Part shown: piece after piece, positions 17,659 to 31,397 of the stretch
Numbering within the stretch: position 1 is the stretch's first letter
Layout of the letters: every line of letters starts with the position of its first letter
NCBI GenBank assembly: GCA_016929245.1
Contig: JAFGJE010000151.1
Coordinates: 1-35,172, forward strand
Source: Phycisphaerae bacterium
GTDB lineage: Bacteria; Planctomycetota; Phycisphaerae; SM23-33
DNA length: 35,172 nucleotides
Reading direction: 5' to 3'
Position numbers and translations under genes: made by a program
The notes under the pieces: generated by a model
Database searches by the model: none
What the model was told of the DNA's origin: nothing
What the model saw: only the letters and a program-made list of their open reading frames with translations

Positions 17659-17801
17659 TCATCCTGAGCGTATCGTGGCACCTTCAAACGTCGCTTCGAC
17701 GTTTGTAGGTGTTCCCGCGATAATTGATGAAAAGCACCCGCAAGCGAGACCTGTCCCTGAGGGAAGACTCGCTTGAAGGTGCCACGATACGCTCAGGATG
17801 A
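17659..17801. repeat. Branched palindromic element C with 29-bp outer stem
   Basis: Outer arms 17659-17687 and 17773-17801 are exact reverse complements. The 85-base interior folds into further hairpins: AAACGTCG/CGACGTTT with a 3-base loop at 17686-17704, and CAAGCGAG/CTCGCTTG at 17741-17748 with 17768-17775, the latter enclosing a TCCC/GGGA pair. Inner and outer stems share one or two end bases. The outer end is TCATCCTGAGCG as in elements A, B, D and E, but the next module (TATCGTGGCACC) is unique here. It lies 28 bases from the M16 protease stop. Confidence 0.88.
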
Positions 17802-17829
17802 CAGAAATTTGATGTTAGTGAATCAAACG

Positions 17830-20574
17830 CTATTCCGTTTTTTCCACCTGCTTTTCTTCCTGCACTATGGTTTCGGGGGGGAAGAGTTCGGGGTTGGGGG
17901 TGATGACGGTGACGACCAGGCCCCGGTCGAGGAGTTGTTTCGCGACGTCCCGGACCTGTTGGGGGGTGACGGCTTTGAGCTTTGCTTCCAGCGTTTTGGG
18001 CCAGTCCACCCCCAGGCCGTACAGTTCATTCAGCGCCGCGGCGAGCGACAGGGCGTCCACGGTCTGGTTGTCGAGAATCTCGGATGTGACGATGGAGGTG
18101 ATCGCCCGGTCGAGTTCGTCCCGCGTGGGAGTGTATTGGGCCGCCTTGCGGAGATTCGCCTGGATAATGTCCACGACTTTTTTGGCGTGTTCCGGCTGGG
18201 TTCCGGCGTAGACGAGAAACGCGCCCGGCATGAAGCCCGTCTTGTGGTAGGCGTGGACGACGTACACGAGCTTCTTGCCCCGCAGTTCCTTGTGCAGCCA
18301 GCCGGACGGCAGGCTGTATCCGCTGATGATCGTGTCCAGCAGCATCAGGGGAAGGCGCTGCTTCAGATCGGGCACGGTCGTCCCGGGGGCGGCGACGATG
18401 ATGCCCGCCTGTTTCGTGTTCGTTTTTTTCACATAGGTTTCCCCGCCGGATTTCACGACGCGGGGTTTGGCGGGGTGCGGCGGGGTCGGCCCGACGGGCA
18501 TATCGCCGAACCGACGGGCGATGAGGGCCTTGACCTTCGCGGGGTCGAAATTCCCGAACACCGTCAGCACGCTGGAACCGGCGAGCACGACGCGGTCGTG
18601 ATAGGCCTTCAACTGCTCCGGTGTGGCGGCCTGGATGACGGGGAGGCGTCCGTCGGGCAGCATTTCCCAGGGGCAGCCGGCGAAGAATTTCGCGCGCCAG
18701 AACTTGCTCAACTGCGAAAACCAGTGTTCGTCCTGCCGGCGGATTTGCGCCTCGATCAAAGGACGATAGGCGTCGAGTTCCTTTTTGGGAAACGTGGGAT
18801 TCAGCACGACGTCCGCGAAAATCTCCAGCGCCGGGATCACCTCGTCGCTCAAGACCGACGCCTGCCAGTACAGCGAATTGTCGCCGCAGGCGCCCTGGAT
18901 GCTCCCGCCGGCGTGGCTGAAAAACGCGGCGATCTCGTCGCCGGTGCGCTGGCCCGCCCCGCGCGTCGAAAGCGACGTCAGAAGATTCCCCAGGCCGTTG
19001 GTTTCGGACGTTTCCAGCAGCAGTCCGCCTTTACTCGCCAGCGTCATCGCCGCCAACCCGACCTCTTCGGACGGCTGGAGCACGACGCGCAGGCCGTTGG
19101 GCAGCGTGTAGACGTCCGCCTGGGAGACGTTGTTCGTTTTCGTTGTCGTCGTCACGTCGGATTGGTGGGATTCCGGAACGACGCGCGTGACGGCAAGGTC
19201 GTCGAAGCGGAAATATTTCTTCGCGACGGCGAGGACTTCCTCGGCGGTGACCTTCCGGATGTTTTTCGTGTAGTTCTCGCTGAAGGCCGGGTCGCCCGTG
19301 GTCAGCAGATCGCTTCCGAGCGTAGCCGCGACGCTCTCGGCCGTCTGCTGCCGACGGACAAAGTCCGCCGTCATCTGCCGCTTCGCGCGGGCGAGTTCCT
19401 CGTCGGTCACGCCTTCCTCGAGAACCTTTCGCAGTTCCTCCAGGATCGCTTTTTCGGCGAGGTCCGCCCGGCCGGGCTGCGTGCGGAAGCTGATCGCGAA
19501 ATCGCCCAGCCCCCAGGCCGGGGTGCTCGACCACGTGTCGATGTAGGTCACGAGACGTTTCTCGAACTGCAGCGCCTTGACCAGCCGGCTGGCGTCGCCG
19601 CGGGAGAGGATCGTGCTCAGCACGTCCAGCGGATACAAATCCGGGTGCAGCAGGGGGATGGTCTGGAAGCTGATGAACTCGGCGGTTTCCTGGAAGGCCT
19701 TGCTTTTGGCGACGACGCGGCGGACGCCGGTGAGCTTCGGCGCGTCGGGCAGGTCGAGAACGGGCTGCCTGCCCTGGTTAAATCCCCGCGTCTGTTTGGC
19801 GACGTGATCGAGCATCGCCCGGGGTTCCACGTCGCCGGCGATCACCAGGACCATGTTCTGCGGGACGTACATCTCGCGGTGGTACGCCAGCACGTCGTCG
19901 TAGGTCAGGCGGGACAGCGGGCCGGGGTATCCGATCACGGGCACGCCCGCGGGATGATCCTGGTAGAGGTTCTTCATGTGCATGTAATAGAGGATGCGCA
20001 TGGGGTCGTCCTTGCCCATTTCCAGTTCGCGCTGCACGACGCCGTGTTCGCGCTCGAAGTCGGCCAGGGTGATATCGGGTTCGGCGAGTTGCTCGACGAT
20101 CAGGTCGATGCAGTCGGTCGCCTTGCTGGCGACCGCCGAGACGTAATAGCAGGTACTCGCCAGGCTGGTGAAGGCGTTGGCCTGTCCGCCGATTTTGTCC
20201 AGCCGGCTGACGGATTCCTCGGACTTGGTTCGGATGTGTCCCGCGGCCGATTCCGTGGTGCTGTATTTCGCGACCAGGTGTTCGACGAGATGACTGATCC
20301 CACAGCCCAGCCATTTTCCTTCGTACAATCCGCCGGCCCGCACGAACGCCCGCACGCTGACGACCGGTGCGGTATGGTGCGGTTTGACGACCACCCGCAG
20401 GCCGTTCGACAAACGAGCGACCACCGCGCCGGAAGCGTCCCGCGTCCGCTCGACGACGCGGATGTCCTCCCAAGCCGGCTGGGTGTCGGCGGGTTGGGTG
20501 GATTGGGCGAACGCGAAGGAAAATGGAAACACGGAGACAAGGATGATCAAGGAAGCAAAAGAAGAATGTTTCAT
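17830..20574 (-). CDS. M16-family zinc metalloprotease (two-domain, exported)
   Basis: A 914-residue predicted exported protease of the pitrilysin family. A signal peptide (MKHSSFASLIILVSVFPFSFAFA) is followed by a QSTQPADTQP linker. The first M16 domain has the inverted zinc motif HLVEH (H95, E98, H99) and the expected third ligand Glu in FEREHGVVQREL about 77 residues later. A second, non-catalytic M16-type domain begins near residue 485 (YTLPNGLRVVLQPSEEVGLAAM), where the zinc motif is replaced by GLGNLLTSL. Such proteases degrade peptides in the periplasm. GGAGG lies 5 bases before ATG 20574, which fixes the start. A longer frame from a TTG at 20586 would cover that site. It appears to be a single-gene unit. 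Confidence 0.93.
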   Translation of the reverse strand: MKHSSFASLIILVSVFPFSFAFAQSTQPADTQPAWEDIRVVERTRDASGAVVARLSNGLRVVVKPHHTAPVVSVRAFVRAGGLYEGKWLGCGISHLVEHLVAKYSTTESAAGHIRTKSEESVSRLDKIGGQANAFTSLASTCYYVSAVASKATDCIDLIVEQLAEPDITLADFEREHGVVQRELEMGKDDPMRILYYMHMKNLYQDHPAGVPVIGYPGPLSRLTYDDVLAYHREMYVPQNMVLVIAGDVEPRAMLDHVAKQTRGFNQGRQPVLDLPDAPKLTGVRRVVAKSKAFQETAEFISFQTIPLLHPDLYPLDVLSTILSRGDASRLVKALQFEKRLVTYIDTWSSTPAWGLGDFAISFRTQPGRADLAEKAILEELRKVLEEGVTDEELARAKRQMTADFVRRQQTAESVAATLGSDLLTTGDPAFSENYTKNIRKVTAEEVLAVAKKYFRFDDLAVTRVVPESHQSDVTTTTKTNNVSQADVYTLPNGLRVVLQPSEEVGLAAMTLASKGGLLLETSETNGLGNLLTSLSTRGAGQRTGDEIAAFFSHAGGSIQGACGDNSLYWQASVLSDEVIPALEIFADVVLNPTFPKKELDAYRPLIEAQIRRQDEHWFSQLSKFWRAKFFAGCPWEMLPDGRLPVIQAATPEQLKAYHDRVVLAGSSVLTVFGNFDPAKVKALIARRFGDMPVGPTPPHPAKPRVVKSGGETYVKKTNTKQAGIIVAAPGTTVPDLKQRLPLMLLDTIISGYSLPSGWLHKELRGKKLVYVVHAYHKTGFMPGAFLVYAGTQPEHAKKVVDIIQANLRKAAQYTPTRDELDRAITSIVTSEILDNQTVDALSLAAALNELYGLGVDWPKTLEAKLKAVTPQQVRDVAKQLLDRGLVVTVITPNPELFPPETIVQEEKQVEKTE

Positions 20575-20667
20575 GGATTCCTCCAAAAATGTTCGGATCG
20601 CGTCGCGCGGCGGAAAGGTATTTGAAAAAACCGCCTCGCTGTATGTACTTCAACCCCGCGGTGTCGG

Positions 20668-23645: not shown

Positions 23646-23699
23646 GACATGAATTCCGTTTTTTTATCGAAACGCGCGGGGAAACGGAATATCCATGTC
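23646..23699 (-). terminator. Hairpin overlapping the SRAP stop codon, probable terminator
   Basis: GACATG with CATGTC and ATTCCGTTT with AAACGGAAT form a 15-bp stem (one small bulge) around a ~20-base loop. The right side includes the stop codon of the SRAP gene (23698-23700). There is no long U-tract after it, so the mechanism is uncertain. Confidence 0.45.
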
Positions 23700-24393
23700 A
23701 GAACAGCGTGGGGGGCGGATCGGATTTCAGGTCGATGGGCGTGATGCAGTCGGGGGTGTCGTTTTTCGGGTCGTTGACGTTTCGCCGGACGGGGTGGGCT
23801 TGCAGGAGGATATCGTCCCTGGGTCGCAACAACTCCTTCCGCCGTTCCGTCTCCGTCGCGTCATCGAGCCAGAGGTCGCATTCCTCCGGCGCGAGGATCG
23901 CGGGCATGCGGGTGTGGATGTCCGCGGCCGCGCCGACGGCATCGACGGTGATGATCGTACAACCGCGAATTTTTCCGCCGTCGGGCGCGGTCCATTCGTC
24001 CCACAATCCCGCGAAGACGAGAGGCTGTTCGTCGCGTCGGCGGAGATAGAAGGGTTGTTTCCCGCCCCGTGAACCCGCCTGCCATTCGTAGAATCCGTCG
24101 GCGGGGATCAGGCAGCGTTTGTTCCGAAAGGGTTCGCGGAAGGCGGGTTTTTGCTCCAGCGTTTCGGCGCGGGCGTTGATGAGTCGATTGCCGATCGCCG
24201 GGTCGTTCGACCAGGCGGGGATCAGTCCCCATCGCATGGTCTCCGCGAGGCGTCGCCCCTGGACGAGGCGCACGACCAGCACCTCCTGCGACGGGGCGAT
24301 GTTGTAGCGTTTCGACAGCGCCGGAGTGTTGTCAAAATGCAACACCTCCCGCAGCCGCGCCGCGGGGGTTCGTAATGCGAATCGGCCGCACAT
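23698..24393 (-). CDS. SOS response-associated peptidase / abasic-site DNA crosslinker (SRAP, YedK/HMCES family)
   Basis: A 231-residue SRAP protein that in the family traps abasic sites in single-stranded DNA through its N-terminal cysteine. It starts MCGRFAL, with the catalytic Cys2 exposed after Met removal. Other conserved parts are RYNIAPSQEVLVV, MRWGLIPAWSND, LINARAETL (Asn), CLIPADGFYEWQ (Glu) and DIHTRMPAIL (His), all present. Length matches bacterial YedK. It begins 46 bases left of element F, which follows the Gfo/Idh gene. The ribosome site is weak. No other repair gene adjoins it. Confidence 0.94.
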   Translation of the reverse strand: MCGRFALRTPAARLREVLHFDNTPALSKRYNIAPSQEVLVVRLVQGRRLAETMRWGLIPAWSNDPAIGNRLINARAETLEQKPAFREPFRNKRCLIPADGFYEWQAGSRGGKQPFYLRRRDEQPLVFAGLWDEWTAPDGGKIRGCTIITVDAVGAAADIHTRMPAILAPEECDLWLDDATETERRKELLRPRDDILLQAHPVRRNVNDPKNDTPDCITPIDLKSDPPPTLF

Positions 24394-26056: not shown

Positions 26057-29000
26057 CTACTCCGTTTTCAGGGAAGGTTCCACCAGCCGGCGGATGATCG
26101 TCGCTAAGGGACTCAGGGGAACGGTGTCCATCTTCGGATTTTTCAGCGTTCCGGTCACGTGAATCTCCACCAGCGAGCGGGAAAGAGCTTCCAGGAGGTC
26201 TTCGGTAATTTCCCCCAGGCGAGGCAGTTCCCCGGGCGGGCCGGTGAGAAACGTCAGGTCGAGTTTCTCGTTTTTCATGTTCATCGTGCCCGAACCGAGG
26301 ATGCTGATTCCTTTGCCCATGTTGGTCTTTCGGTCCCATCCGGTCAGGTAGATTTCCTCGAAACGGAGGATGTCGTTTTTCAAATGATAGTTGACGAATC
26401 CCCGATTGAACGCGCCTTCGCCGGGCAGTTGGAGGTAGATCACGTTGACCAGTCCGAGAATGACCGGAAGCTCGAAGATGCGCCCGCGGGAAAGGGTCAG
26501 TTCGCCCGTCGCCTGGCGCTTGGGGTGTTTTCCCCCGACGACTTCGAGGCTGAGTCTTCCGGAAAGTTTTCCGTCGAGTTGAATCCGTTTATTCGGATCC
26601 GATCGTCCGGCGTTGACGAGTTGCCCCATGTCGATATTCCAGACCGACGCGCTGAGTTCGTAGTGGATGGGATCGGTCAGTCGGATGGTCAGTTCCCCGT
26701 CGATTTTCCCGTCGTGCGCCCGGGCGCTGATCTCGTTGATCTGCAGAACGTCGCTGTCGGCGCGTTTGAGCAATCGGCCTTTCAGGTCCGTGATATCATG
26801 TTTTTGGAAGGAGAGGGTTTTGAGCTTCACCTTGGCGTCGATCGTGAGTTTATCCTTCGCCTTCTGTCCGGATCGGCCCGTGAGGCTCCCGGTCATCTTC
26901 CGGGGTCCGAATCCGAAGTCCACGATGACATCCCGCAATTCCACTTTTCCCTCCGCGTCCCAGGCGGCCGGCTGGGTGGTCGCGCCCGGCTGGGTGGTCG
27001 CCGTCGGCGGTCGGTGGATATGCAGCGATTGGATATCGGCGTTGATCGTTCCTCCGGGGGTGATGCGCTGGATGAGCGGGACGACTTCGGCTGGGATCGC
27101 CTCCAGCAGGTTCTTGTCCATGGAGAGGTTATTCGCGGAAATCCGCAACACCACGTCCTGGGCGCCGTCGGGGGTGTGGCGGATTACCCCGGACACCTCG
27201 GTGTAGATTTTCTCGTCGCCGGATCGCATCGTTTCGAGGTTCACCACGCCGGGCGTGACGACCGCCAGGCCGGCGACGTTTCGGAAGGTGTATGGAAAAT
27301 CCCTGTATCGCAGGGAGGCGTCCTCGGCGCGGATCGTCACGCGGTACTCCGGTTTCGTGCCGTCGCCCAGGGATCGCGTCATCACGTCGATGTTCGCCTT
27401 ACCGGCCGGGGAGAGGCTTTCCCATACCTCGCGCAGGTTCGGCGGAAGGGCGTCGTGGAATTCCTTCCCCAGCGTCACGTCGTCGGCCTGGATCGCCAGG
27501 TCATATCCCGCCGGGCGCGAATCGCTCCGCTGGAGATCCACCGAACCGGAAATCGCCACCTTCGCCTTGTCGTTCCTTCCCTGGACGTCTTTTAGGACCG
27601 CCTGGGAGGGAGTGATGCGCACTTCGCCGACGGCGTCCCGGATGGGGTAGGGGAATTTCGCGTAGCGGAACGACGCGCCTTTCAAAACGGCGTTGATGTC
27701 ATAGTCCACCGGTTCGTCCCCCGTTTTCCGCACACGGGCCGTGACGTGACCGATCCGCCCGCCGGGATGCAGATCGGCGATCCATTCCCGCATTGGCCCC
27801 TGCAAGGCGCCCAGCAGCGTCTCGTCCAGCCGGACGCGGGTGGCGTGCAGGTGCAGATCCACCGTCATGTCCGGCGTGGTCAATCCCCGCACTTCGCCTT
27901 TGGCGTGCACGATCATTTGTCCGTTGCGGCTTCGCGCTTCGGCGATGCGGATATCCTTTCCCCGCAGCGTGACTTCGCCGAAGATATGCTTCAGGGGATA
28001 CGGGAAGGCTTCGTAGGTGATCCCCGTGAATCCCTTCATGTGAAAATCCACATCCACCGTCGCGTCGACGAGAGGCTCCTGTTTGACGACGCGCACATCC
28101 ACGTCGCACGTTCCGGTGGGGGAGAGTTTTTCCCAGACCGTGTGGTATTGTTTCGGAAGGGCGTTTCGCGTGTCGTCGTCCAGGGGCACGTTTTTTCCGG
28201 ACACCCGGATGTCGTAAAGAGTTTTTCGATGTTTCGTGTCGCGTTTCAGATCCCCCCCGATCGTGACGTTCGCCTCGCCGCGCCGGGCGGTGAAGGAAAT
28301 GCGATACACCCCCGTTCGGTTGAAATACGCCGCCCCGCGCACGTGATCCACCGTCAGGGGGAAACGGTAATAGGTGATGGTCGCGTCCTGGGGTTCGAGG
28401 CGTCCTTCGCAGCGATTTTCCCCCTGGGCGTCGCGCTGGAAGGTCATGGTGATATTGCCCGTTCCCTTGGGGTGAAAATCCCGCTGCACGGTGGCGACGA
28501 TTTCCGCCAGCGGTCCCTTGATTTTATCGGGGAATTGAACGCCCTGTATGTCGATTTTCGCCTGAAAGGGACTGTCCTTGGCGTATCCGTCGTATCGGCC
28601 GTTGAGGGTGAAGACGGCCCGTCCGGCTTCCTTGACCCGTCCGGTGATGTCGATCATTTCCACGTGTTCTTTCGTGAACCGCAACCGCCCTTGCACGTCC
28701 GAAAGCGTCAGGTTGCCCTCGGTTTCGGGCAGCTTCATCGAGAAGTCTTCCAGCGCGATTTCATAACGGCCTTGCTTGGTGTCCGTGCCTTCGCTTTCCA
28801 GGAGCGTGAAGTCGCCGCGGAAATCGTAGCGGTCGATCCACGTGCGATACTCCGGGGGCATGTGGACGAACCATTGCTCGGTGACGCTGCCGGAAATCAG
28901 GCGAATCTCCCCGGTTTGGGTGTCCAGCAGCATTCGGGCGTAGGGAATGGTCTTCCCGTTGCGCGACAGATCCTGCACCGCGACGTCATAGGTGTACGAA

Positions 29001-29611
29001 TTTCTGGGCGTCAAGGAGGCCTTGAACTGCTGCGGCGGCTGTTCCTCCACCACCGGTCCGGCGCTTCCCATCCGTCGGACGCGCGTGTTGAGCAGCCCGT
29101 CCTTCAGCGTGATGCGCGGCAGGGACGTGAGCATCGACGATTTGTCCCGCTGGCGCGAACTGGCGAGGCGGAACAGGCGCTCGGCGTTGCTCGTTCCGTC
29201 TTCGTATTCCAGGTTCACCACCGGACGAAGGCAGACGATCTCCGTCGGTTCGATGCGCCGCTGAAAGATCAGCACGTCAGGGCGATGCTTGAGCACCACT
29301 TCCTCGGCGGTGAAGAAATGCTCGTCCTCCCCGCGAATGCGGACGCGCACGTTGAACAGGCGAATGCCCTCGAAGACGCTGAAACTCGCGTCTTCCACGT
29401 CCACGTCGGCGCCGGTGAGATCCTCCAGCGTTCGCTTCGCTTCGCGGCGGATGTGGCTGGAGCGCGTGAAAAACCATCCCGCGTAGAGCAGCGTCAGCAG
29501 CAGCGCCAACAAAACCAATCCCACCAGGCGCCGGCGCGGCGAGACGTATTTCCACCGTCGTCGTCGCCGCCGGGGCGGAGGGGACAGAATTTTTTTGGCG
29601 AGGCGTTTCAC
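26057..29611 (-). CDS. Giant AsmA-like envelope protein with ~117-residue repeats
   Basis: A 1184-residue protein with a basic N terminus, one transmembrane helix (residues ~29-48) and a long extracytoplasmic part, ending in an AsmA-like C-terminal region (LTLSRGRIFELPVILGLVNVIYLQLPG, then GKGISILGSGTMNMKNEKLDLTFLTGPPGELP). The centre repeats with a period of about 117 residues. FPYP-type cores lie near 417, 534, 651 and 770 (YYRFPLTVDHVRG, YEAFPYPLKHIFG, YAKFPYPIRDAVG, YRDFPYTFRNVAG). LSPxG-type cores lie near 380, 497, 614, 734 and 851. A TATTQPGATTQP linker follows at ~870. This architecture recalls groove-forming lipid carriers (YhdP/TamB/AsmA). The GTG start at 29611 overlaps the UvrC-like stop by one base. 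Confidence 0.87.
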   Translation of the reverse strand: MKRLAKKILSPPPRRRRRRWKYVSPRRRLVGLVLLALLLTLLYAGWFFTRSSHIRREAKRTLEDLTGADVDVEDASFSVFEGIRLFNVRVRIRGEDEHFFTAEEVVLKHRPDVLIFQRRIEPTEIVCLRPVVNLEYEDGTSNAERLFRLASSRQRDKSSMLTSLPRITLKDGLLNTRVRRMGSAGPVVEEQPPQQFKASLTPRNSYTYDVAVQDLSRNGKTIPYARMLLDTQTGEIRLISGSVTEQWFVHMPPEYRTWIDRYDFRGDFTLLESEGTDTKQGRYEIALEDFSMKLPETEGNLTLSDVQGRLRFTKEHVEMIDITGRVKEAGRAVFTLNGRYDGYAKDSPFQAKIDIQGVQFPDKIKGPLAEIVATVQRDFHPKGTGNITMTFQRDAQGENRCEGRLEPQDATITYYRFPLTVDHVRGAAYFNRTGVYRISFTARRGEANVTIGGDLKRDTKHRKTLYDIRVSGKNVPLDDDTRNALPKQYHTVWEKLSPTGTCDVDVRVVKQEPLVDATVDVDFHMKGFTGITYEAFPYPLKHIFGEVTLRGKDIRIAEARSRNGQMIVHAKGEVRGLTTPDMTVDLHLHATRVRLDETLLGALQGPMREWIADLHPGGRIGHVTARVRKTGDEPVDYDINAVLKGASFRYAKFPYPIRDAVGEVRITPSQAVLKDVQGRNDKAKVAISGSVDLQRSDSRPAGYDLAIQADDVTLGKEFHDALPPNLREVWESLSPAGKANIDVMTRSLGDGTKPEYRVTIRAEDASLRYRDFPYTFRNVAGLAVVTPGVVNLETMRSGDEKIYTEVSGVIRHTPDGAQDVVLRISANNLSMDKNLLEAIPAEVVPLIQRITPGGTINADIQSLHIHRPPTATTQPGATTQPAAWDAEGKVELRDVIVDFGFGPRKMTGSLTGRSGQKAKDKLTIDAKVKLKTLSFQKHDITDLKGRLLKRADSDVLQINEISARAHDGKIDGELTIRLTDPIHYELSASVWNIDMGQLVNAGRSDPNKRIQLDGKLSGRLSLEVVGGKHPKRQATGELTLSRGRIFELPVILGLVNVIYLQLPGEGAFNRGFVNYHLKNDILRFEEIYLTGWDRKTNMGKGISILGSGTMNMKNEKLDLTFLTGPPGELPRLGEITEDLLEALSRSLVEIHVTGTLKNPKMDTVPLSPLATIIRRLVEPSLKTE

Positions 29612-30795
29612 TACTCCGGTTCCTTTGCATCGTCGGCGGATTGTTTTTTCTCGACCGCCGCCGATAAACCCAGATCGTCGCGGCGGGTTTGAACGATTTC
29701 ACCGAGCGTTTCGGGGGTGAGGTTCGCGCACCAGCGTACCGCCACGCCGCCGCGTGGCGGGTCGGCGAACAGGCTTCGGGTGATTAGTCCCATGCGCAGC
29801 CGTCCGAAGTCGTCGCAAGGCGGCGTCCGGGCGGTGAGGATTTTCATGCGATCCAGCACTCCCTGAAGCTCATTTTCCTGTAGAGGCCATTGTATCGCGC
29901 CGGCCGGGACGATGTCTCCCCGCCAAACCAGAAACACCCGCGCCTCGCGCCGCGATCCGCCGCGATGCACCAGAATATATCCGAATTCGTCGGCCGGGTG
30001 AACCTCCCGGAAGCATTCCCGCTCGAACAGGCTCAATCGTTCCAGCCGGGCCTTGAAGGAACCGGCGCGTTCGTAATCCCGCGCCTCGGCGGCGGATTTC
30101 ATTCGCGACGTGAGTTTGTCCCGCAACGTCGCGCGATCCCCCCCCGCGAACGCCAGCGCCTCGGCGAGAATCTCCCGATACGCGTCCATGGAAATCGTTC
30201 CGTCGGCGGGACTGACGCAGCGTCCCATTTCCGCGTACGCGCAGCGCGGGCCGTTCGGCGCTCTCCGCAGGCAGGTGATCGAGCGACACAGGTCGAAACT
30301 CTCCTGCAGGCCTTCGATGAAGCTCTCGGCGCCTTTCGCGTCGGCGAACGGACCGAGATAACTCCCCGGCCGCGCGTACACCTCCCGCGTGCGCTGGAAA
30401 TACGGATACGCGTCCTCCAGGTGGATATGGATGAACCAGGGCGCCTTCCAGGAGATCATTTTCGCGTGGCGCTTCGGCCAGAGGATATGGGCGATTTCGA
30501 GAAACCACAAATCCGTCTCGAAATGGCTCCCGCAGCGTCGATAGAAGACGCGCCGGGTGATCCGGCGGAGATCGGGACGTTTGCTCGGAACCGGAAGGTC
30601 CTCGTCGGTTCGTTCCGCGAGGCGATTCCGCGTCCGGGCGCGCATGTCGGCCGCGGTCAGCATGACGATGGGTTCGTTGTTCTCCCCCGCCAGCAGCACC
30701 ACGCCGCGCTTGGCGGGGACGGCCGCGATCTGCTCGTCGGACACCGGCGTCCGAACGTCCAGCCCCTCGTCGAAGAGTTCCGACCAGTTATCCAT
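29611..30795 (-). CDS. UvrC-like protein with degenerate GIY-YIG domain and UVR motif
   Basis: A 394-residue protein aligning with the N-terminal half of UvrC. Residues ~30-110 occupy the GIY-YIG place but read GVVLLAGENNEPIVMLTAADMRAR, so both tyrosines and the YIG glycine are lost, although an Arg and the Glu at residue 100 (WFLE) remain. Residues 120-205 match the UvrC middle (YLGPFADAKGAESFIEGLQESFDLCR, CAYAEMGRCVSPADG). A UVR motif lies at 228-255 (SRMKSAAEARDYERAGSFKARLERL). The RNase H-like and helix-hairpin-helix domains of UvrC are absent; in their place is an unassigned C-terminal part. It is co-transcribed with the AsmA-like gene. ATG 30795 has no clear ribosome site. Confidence 0.82.
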   Translation of the reverse strand: MDNWSELFDEGLDVRTPVSDEQIAAVPAKRGVVLLAGENNEPIVMLTAADMRARTRNRLAERTDEDLPVPSKRPDLRRITRRVFYRRCGSHFETDLWFLEIAHILWPKRHAKMISWKAPWFIHIHLEDAYPYFQRTREVYARPGSYLGPFADAKGAESFIEGLQESFDLCRSITCLRRAPNGPRCAYAEMGRCVSPADGTISMDAYREILAEALAFAGGDRATLRDKLTSRMKSAAEARDYERAGSFKARLERLSLFERECFREVHPADEFGYILVHRGGSRREARVFLVWRGDIVPAGAIQWPLQENELQGVLDRMKILTARTPPCDDFGRLRMGLITRSLFADPPRGGVAVRWCANLTPETLGEIVQTRRDDLGLSAAVEKKQSADDAKEPE

Positions 30796-30920: not shown

Positions 30921-31397
30921 CTAAATCCACATGCCGGTAATGACGCTCTCGAAACACATTTTCCCGTCCACGAAACCCTGAATCCCCCCTTTGCAGCGGC
31001 GGGGGGGACGCGATTCGAGCATCTTGCCCACGAGCACCAGACGTTGTCCCGGTTCGATCGTCCCGCGAAATTTCACGTCGTCAACCGCGGCGAATCCGAG
31101 GAACCCGTCCACTTTCTCCGCCGTCCAAATATAGTAACTCACCAACTGCGCCGCCGTTTCGATCATCAGCACGCCCGGAAGGATGGGCCGACCGGGAATA
31201 TGGCCGCGCACCCAGAAGTCGTTTTCGGTCGCGTCGTAATATCCGGCCATCAATCCCCGCTCGACATCGAGGTGAATGATCGCGTCGAGGCGTTCAAACT
31301 CATGCCGGTGCGGCAGGACTTCGTAAATTCCCTTTTTGTCCACGAGCACGTTGTTGCAGTCCAGCGTGTCGATATCCAGATACGGTGTCGGGGGCAT
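30921..31397 (-). CDS. FabZ-like 3-hydroxyacyl-ACP dehydratase
   Basis: A 158-residue single hot-dog domain. The signature GHIPGRPILPGVLMIETAAQ contains the catalytic His66 and Glu80, 14 residues apart as in E. coli FabZ (H54/E68). The end of the protein, VGKMLESRPPRRCKGGIQGFVDGKMCFES, fits the substrate-binding strands. It would dehydrate beta-hydroxyacyl-ACP in fatty acid synthesis or a related acyl pathway in the cytoplasm. No fab or lpx gene adjoins, so it could equally serve a polyketide or special-lipid route. AAGGA lies 8 bases before ATG 31397. Confidence 0.87.
   Translation of the reverse strand: MPPTPYLDIDTLDCNNVLVDKKGIYEVLPHRHEFERLDAIIHLDVERGLMAGYYDATENDFWVRGHIPGRPILPGVLMIETAAQLVSYYIWTAEKVDGFLGFAAVDDVKFRGTIEPGQRLVLVGKMLESRPPRRCKGGIQGFVDGKMCFESVITGMWI

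Follow-up and report, generated by a model that had tools for sequence, protein, structure and literature searches.

The 1184-aa protein encoded on the minus strand of a 35,172-nt contig of a Phycisphaerae bacterium (the whole contig is referred to here as the window) contains a tandem repeat of four units, R1–R4, which together span residues 380–850 (Table 1). Judged by its sequence, the protein is best read as a branch of the AsmA superfamily distantly related to YhdP and AsmA. The repeat is real and well defined in this branch; it is of an ordinary kind, but its units can be recognized and counted.

Table 1. Features of the repeat gene and its upstream neighbors (positions refer to the window)
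Feature	Residues	Position	Strand	Basis or remark
Whole gene, 1184-aa AsmA-superfamily repeat protein		26057..29611	-	GTG start
Hydrophobic stretch behind Arg-rich N-terminus	28-49	29465..29530	-	by eye; conserved in relatives; low pLDDT
N-terminal AsmA/chorein-like domain	52-262	28826..29458	-	hhalign, HMM, model match
Unit R0, diverged/partial	263-379	28475..28825	-	Smith-Waterman and profile
Unit R1 (117 aa)	380-496	28124..28474	-	alignment, profile, AlphaFold model
Unit R2 (118 aa)	497-614	27770..28123	-	alignment, profile, AlphaFold model
Unit R3 (119 aa)	615-733	27413..27769	-	alignment, profile, AlphaFold model
Unit R4 (117 aa)	734-850	27062..27412	-	alignment, profile, AlphaFold model
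Unit R5, strongly eroded	851-985	26657..27061	-	alignment, profile
Conserved C-terminal domain, VTGTL-x-x-P region at end	884-1184	26060..26962	-	weak AsmA-like matches
Upstream neighbor, UvrC-like protein (394 aa)		29611..30795	-	
Upstream neighbor, FabZ-like 3-hydroxyacyl-ACP dehydratase		30921..31397	-	

The tandem repeat

A preliminary description of the sequence had proposed a regular repeat of ∼117 residues with two recurring landmarks. Those of the LSPxG type are located at residues 379, 496, 614, 733, and 850, within one residue of the positions given there; those of the FP type are located at residues 417 (FPL), 536 (FPYP), 653 (FPYP), and 772 (FPYT), that is, 119, 117, and 119 residues apart, and the latter three had been placed (at 534, 651, and 770) ∼2 residues too low. 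The regularity itself was borne out by units of 117–119 residues, each pair of which was well discernible from shuffled sequence. All six pairs of R1–R4 gave Smith–Waterman scores between 58 and 100 versus shuffle means of ∼26.5–27 (300 shuffles each; p 1e-4 to 4e-10), and a unit profile refined on relatives matched residues 374–496, 492–614, 611–733, and 732–850 at 6e-30 to 1e-37. When the clean unit profile (see below) was applied to shuffled copies of 132 family members, not a single domain was obtained at iE<1e-3.

Eroded copies had been suggested on either side of the array. A weak unit is indeed present ahead of it: R0 was distinguishable from shuffles with R1 and R3 only (p ∼3e-3), and the refined profile matched residues 279–363 at 7e-10. 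The copy behind the array, R5, was barely detectable; it did not exceed shuffles in the Smith–Waterman comparison (best p 0.05, with R3) and was weakly matched by the profile (910–995; 0.03). R5 contains a low-complexity Pro/Thr/Ala/Gln insert (∼866–883) the length of which differs among relatives, and its region overlaps the start of the profiled C-terminal domain.

In self-comparison, the best 60-residue diagonal of the protein scored 80, versus up to 40 for its eight shuffles. Seven of eight relatives scored between 41 and 111, and one (L053) only 38. A recognizable sequence repeat thus appears to be typical of this planctomycete family, but it can erode.

Predicted structure of the units

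Structure prediction had been proposed as a check for a continuous hydrophobic groove; the prediction gave all four units the same build. AlphaFold modeled the full-length protein with a mean pLDDT of 80.5 (pTM 0.51) and residues 372–858 alone with 88.6 (pTM 0.77); in these models, each of the four units consists of six strands followed by two short helices. The FPYP landmark marks the start of strand 3 of the modeled unit, and the LSPxG landmark the step between the second helix and strand 1 of the following unit. With 58 strands, the full-length model contains the long, sheet-rich shaft expected of the AsmA superfamily.

The odd/even difference in hydropathy along the strands averaged 1.92, compared with 1.2 for shuffled strands. 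Individually, 13 of 51 strands were significant (p<0.05); in several units, strands 1 and 5 alternated most clearly. The four-unit fragment aligned with the TamB shaft (9xdc_B and 9xdd_B; Z 7.2–7.3, rmsd 6.0–6.2 over 207–226 residues). Because of this alternation and this alignment, a hydrophobic groove along the modeled shaft is plausible. Residues 53–216 of the model matched the Atg2 N-domain (Z 5.7, rmsd 4.5, 132 aligned residues), which is below the tool's Z of 8; both TamB and Atg2 have VIA Z values <8, level with those of porins. With Foldseek, no known bridge protein was found at a significant E-value, only apoB100 (4e-4) and porin-like sheets, and the sequence search against solved structures returned nothing significant.

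Placement in the AsmA superfamily

The N-terminal domain is homologous to E. coli AsmA, as the description "AsmA-like" had implied: hhalign aligned the two with prob 91 (E 1.2e-6), and the HMM of the domain matched AsmA residues 9–234 (∼225 residues, iE 2.9e-9). The arrangement by which the superfamily is recognized, an anchor at the N-terminus ahead of an AsmA/chorein-like domain, was found with hhalign and the HMM for the domain and by eye for the anchor (residues 28–49), which is probably seated in the inner membrane. The hhalign comparison with E. coli YhdP yielded E 2e-4 (probability 44), those with E. coli TamB and YdbH were not convincing, and the unit profile matched one stretch of YhdP (652–746, iE 1.6e-5 in a search of one sequence).

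Of the Pfam and NCBIfam matches of the protein, none reached a curated cut-off; those to the YhdP, DUF748, AsmA, and GspN families lie below it but are consistent with each other. Filing the protein as YhdP was rejected, as the PF13116 match (E 1.2e-7) amounts to 30.5 bits when the curated cut-off is 46 bits. The best NCBIfam match is to GspN of the T2SS (E 6e-8, below cut-off), which would fit a GspN-like or AsmA-like accessory of secretion or surface-structure assembly, to which lipid binding is incidental. However, that match is confined to residues 27–109, the part that is AsmA-like too, and secretion genes are absent among the seven flanking window genes scanned; such an accessory role is very unlikely.

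The structural matches to TamB, of low rmsd, also favor a TAM-like shaft, a sheet scaffold that would cooperate with Omp85 in inserting outer-membrane proteins and for which lipid transfer would not be the main role. The genome contains one Omp85 gene, and the relative L089 weakly matches the NCBIfam TamB model (E 2e-4). TamB docks to TamA via its C-terminal domain, PF04357, however, and neither the protein nor its genome matched this domain (positive in 6 of 14 control genomes), for which reason filing as TamB was also rejected. As the C-terminal domain of the family is, in addition, closer to AsmA than to TamB, we regard a TAM-like shaft as unlikely.

No earlier account of planctomycete AsmA-like proteins or of the repeat was found in the literature searched, which lay largely outside subscription journals, and no experimental data on the family were found there. 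The accessible part of a survey of planctomycete outer-membrane genes names neither AsmA nor TamB (PMC3422733).

Number of units in the class and the phylum

A first search in related genomes yielded a family match in 58 of 60. Among 50 complete members from the protein's own class (median length 1207.5 residues), the clean profile (see below) counted 3 units in 2, 4 in 15, 5 in 32, and 6 in 1; the difference between 4 and 5, the numbers found in 47 of the 50, mostly reflects whether the weak R0 was scored. Half-split profiles (alignment A1) placed 121 of 126 segments (R0–R5) of the other half at the right position. The units thus hold positional identity within the class, so the array is older than the class split and has been retained; this identity did not carry over to other classes.

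The gene occurs phylum-wide (match at E≤1e-10 in 170 of 199 genomes). For the phylum sample, which comprised 80 of the places matched in these 170 genomes and 22 named loci, units were counted with a clean phylum profile of 126 positions built from 220 of 544 units; an alternative profile (model length 170) gave equal counts in 110 of 132 members and counts within one in 131. The 132 complete members contained 2 (1 member), 3 (19), 4 (56), 5 (48), 6 (6), or 7 (2) units. Counting repeats in orthologues had been suggested; by these profile counts, unit number runs from 3 to 7 in the phylum and is nearly fixed in the protein's own class.

Whole units have been gained or lost elsewhere in the phylum, in agreement with the growth by internal duplication that had been proposed. 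Candidatus Scalindua and near relatives (L087, L088, L089, L091, and L092) have 4 units and 898–905 aa, whereas family f59 (L123, L124, L125, and L176) has 3 units and 776–797 aa. In the tree of the C-terminal domain, the two clades have SH-aLRT support of 99 and 95, respectively, and are sisters (95); aligned pairwise, they differ by one clean 118-column gap, all other gaps being <30 columns (two of two pairs tried). That repeat number sets length therefore holds for the length of the protein (∼900 aa with 4 units versus ∼780 aa with 3), through gain or loss of whole units. Another 3-unit group (L139, L141, L142, L144, L145, and L173) measures 868–914 aa, and the two members with 7 units, L111 and L171, measure 1369 and 1392 aa. 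The L087 contig is titled Deltaproteobacteria and, as its family member falls inside the Scalindua clade, is probably misbinned. The family gene of Scalindua loci is followed by one for an FtsH protease (L089:10964-12730 by Pfam; L088 and L092 by eye).

Over the 132 complete members, length correlated weakly with unit count (r 0.48; restricted to clean counts of ≥3 units, r 0.52) because linkers and inserts vary. The correlation of span with count in the fully tiled members (73 of 132) was r 0.94, a value that is in part a product of how these members were selected. Frequent changes of unit number, 44 on the C-domain tree, were considered and rejected, as several one-unit differences (L093 versus L099, L153, and L116; L113 versus L110) lack a matching gap and thus point to missed eroded units rather than real changes. 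Single-unit differences between distant members being unreliable, only contrasts with whole-unit gaps were relied on.

Genomic surroundings

The GTG start of the repeat gene shares one base with the 3′ end of the upstream UvrC-like ORF, beyond which lies fabZ, a fatty-acid/lipid gene. In many members of the order, fabZ is located upstream in the same orientation, and the UvrC-like gene may or may not intervene; neither gene was detected in Scalindua or in other families of the class, at loci many of which comprised only 1.5–2 kb of flank. A Pfam search of the genome found no LptD, which leaves the outer-membrane make-up of the host uncertain.

On other contigs of the same genome, three further frames match the family profile in its N- or C-terminal part only (C122:10041-10451, L177; C91:6561-6884, L178; C37:7150-7455, L179), and C122 possibly encodes a second bridge-like protein (open frame of 1439 aa). 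The window also contains a 950-aa open frame (17773-20625) that Pfam did not match at E≤1 and that overlaps a 918-aa frame on the opposite strand, and a gene for a SRAP-domain protein (SOS response peptidase; 23698-24393) near GH127 glycoside hydrolase and Gfo/Idh/MocA genes. At another locus, from a Planctomycetota MAG, the family gene is followed, at a distance of ∼1.3 kb, by one for a compact Cas9-type protein of 1002 aa (Cas9_a, RuvC_III, and HNH_4; L073:9252-12260, plus strand).

A putative lipid bridge

Phospholipid transport in E. coli has been attributed to AsmA-like proteins (PMC8593681 and PMC8912898). We consider it likely that the protein described here is a planctomycete lipid-transfer bridge of the AsmA superfamily. 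The N-terminal helix would anchor it in the inner membrane, the chorein-like domain would take up phospholipid, the long antiparallel-sheet half-pipe of tandem units would carry the lipid tails through the periplasm, and the conserved C-terminal AsmA-type domain would end at or near the outer membrane; phospholipid would thus reach the outer membrane via an inner-membrane-anchored bridge, as proposed for YhdP, TamB, and YdbH. We infer the orientation of this bridge, the continuity of its groove, the carriage of lipid, and the contact with the outer membrane. The homology to the AsmA N-terminus, the sub-cut-off family matches, and the regular build of the four units speak for a lipid bridge, as do the hydropathy alternation, the structural matches to the TamB shaft and the Atg2 N-domain, the presence in most planctomycete genomes searched, the fabZ gene often upstream in the order, and Omp85. 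Against it stand the missed curated cut-offs, the Foldseek result, Z values tied with those of porins, and the missing LptD.

Length modularity would be equally expected of a purely structural link between the membranes, a tether or spacer whose unit number adjusts reach in the absence of lipid flow. The amphipathic alternation of the strands and the chorein-like entry domain indicate a lipid groove instead, and a mere spacer is most improbable.

For the putative bridge, 58 strands at ∼0.48 nm correspond to a shaft of at most ∼28 nm, with twist and curvature ignored, and each unit would, by our estimate, add ∼2.9 nm (six strands at 0.48 nm). Tentatively, and with considerable doubt, a natural ladder of bridge lengths can be envisaged, in which gain or loss of whole 118-residue units has fitted the shaft to the spacing of the two membranes at the sites where it works. 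The planctomycete periplasm is described as invaginated and variable from cell to cell, with wall pits that keep close contact with the cell membrane (PMC5394234). Such variability speaks against a simple relation between unit number and envelope width; a bridge of fixed length could work only at the close contacts. Published periplasm widths for 3- versus 4-unit organisms were not found in the literature searched.

Comparison with known systems

RBG proteins (VPS13, ATG2, SHIP164, Hobbit, and Tweek) likewise have a shaft of tandem sheet units, the number of which sets length; they begin with a chorein-type domain, to which the N-terminal domain described here may correspond. VPS13 is described as having grown by central duplication of units, and its unit number is proposed to fit the width of the gap (PMC7613979). 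In the 6-unit members L102 and L122, the three central units are strongly alike (30–37% identity), which, by analogy with VPS13, fits expansion through duplication at the center. The RBG unit comprises five strands and a helix-loop crossing back (PMC7613979), a definition that the planctomycete unit, with six strands and two helices in each of the four modeled, does not fit. We read the model such that the chain, after six strands, enters and leaves the unit on one side, which would make a crossing loop unneeded. For the eukaryotic RBG proteins, the comparison covered the structural match to Atg2. With recognizable units and sister clades differing by one, the question of gap width can be approached by counting units in genomes and tested by microscopy, and the relatives with three to seven copies provide a natural length set for testing the span of lipid bridges between bacterial membranes.

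Of the E. coli proteins, YhdP (PF13116) is similar in size (1266 aa versus 1184 aa) but lacks an internal sequence repeat above shuffles, its best 60-residue diagonal scoring 35 versus 80 in the planctomycete protein. AsmA (PF05170) shares the homologous N-terminal domain, and C-terminal pieces are also similar; with 617 aa, it is without clear tandem repeat (38). TamB, the sheet shaft of which is a structural match, carries a C-terminal domain that the planctomycete genome lacks by our search, and, like YdbH, has no comparable sequence repeat (30 and 22, respectively). Thus, repeats are no longer recognizable by sequence in the four E. coli members compared but still are in the planctomycete family.
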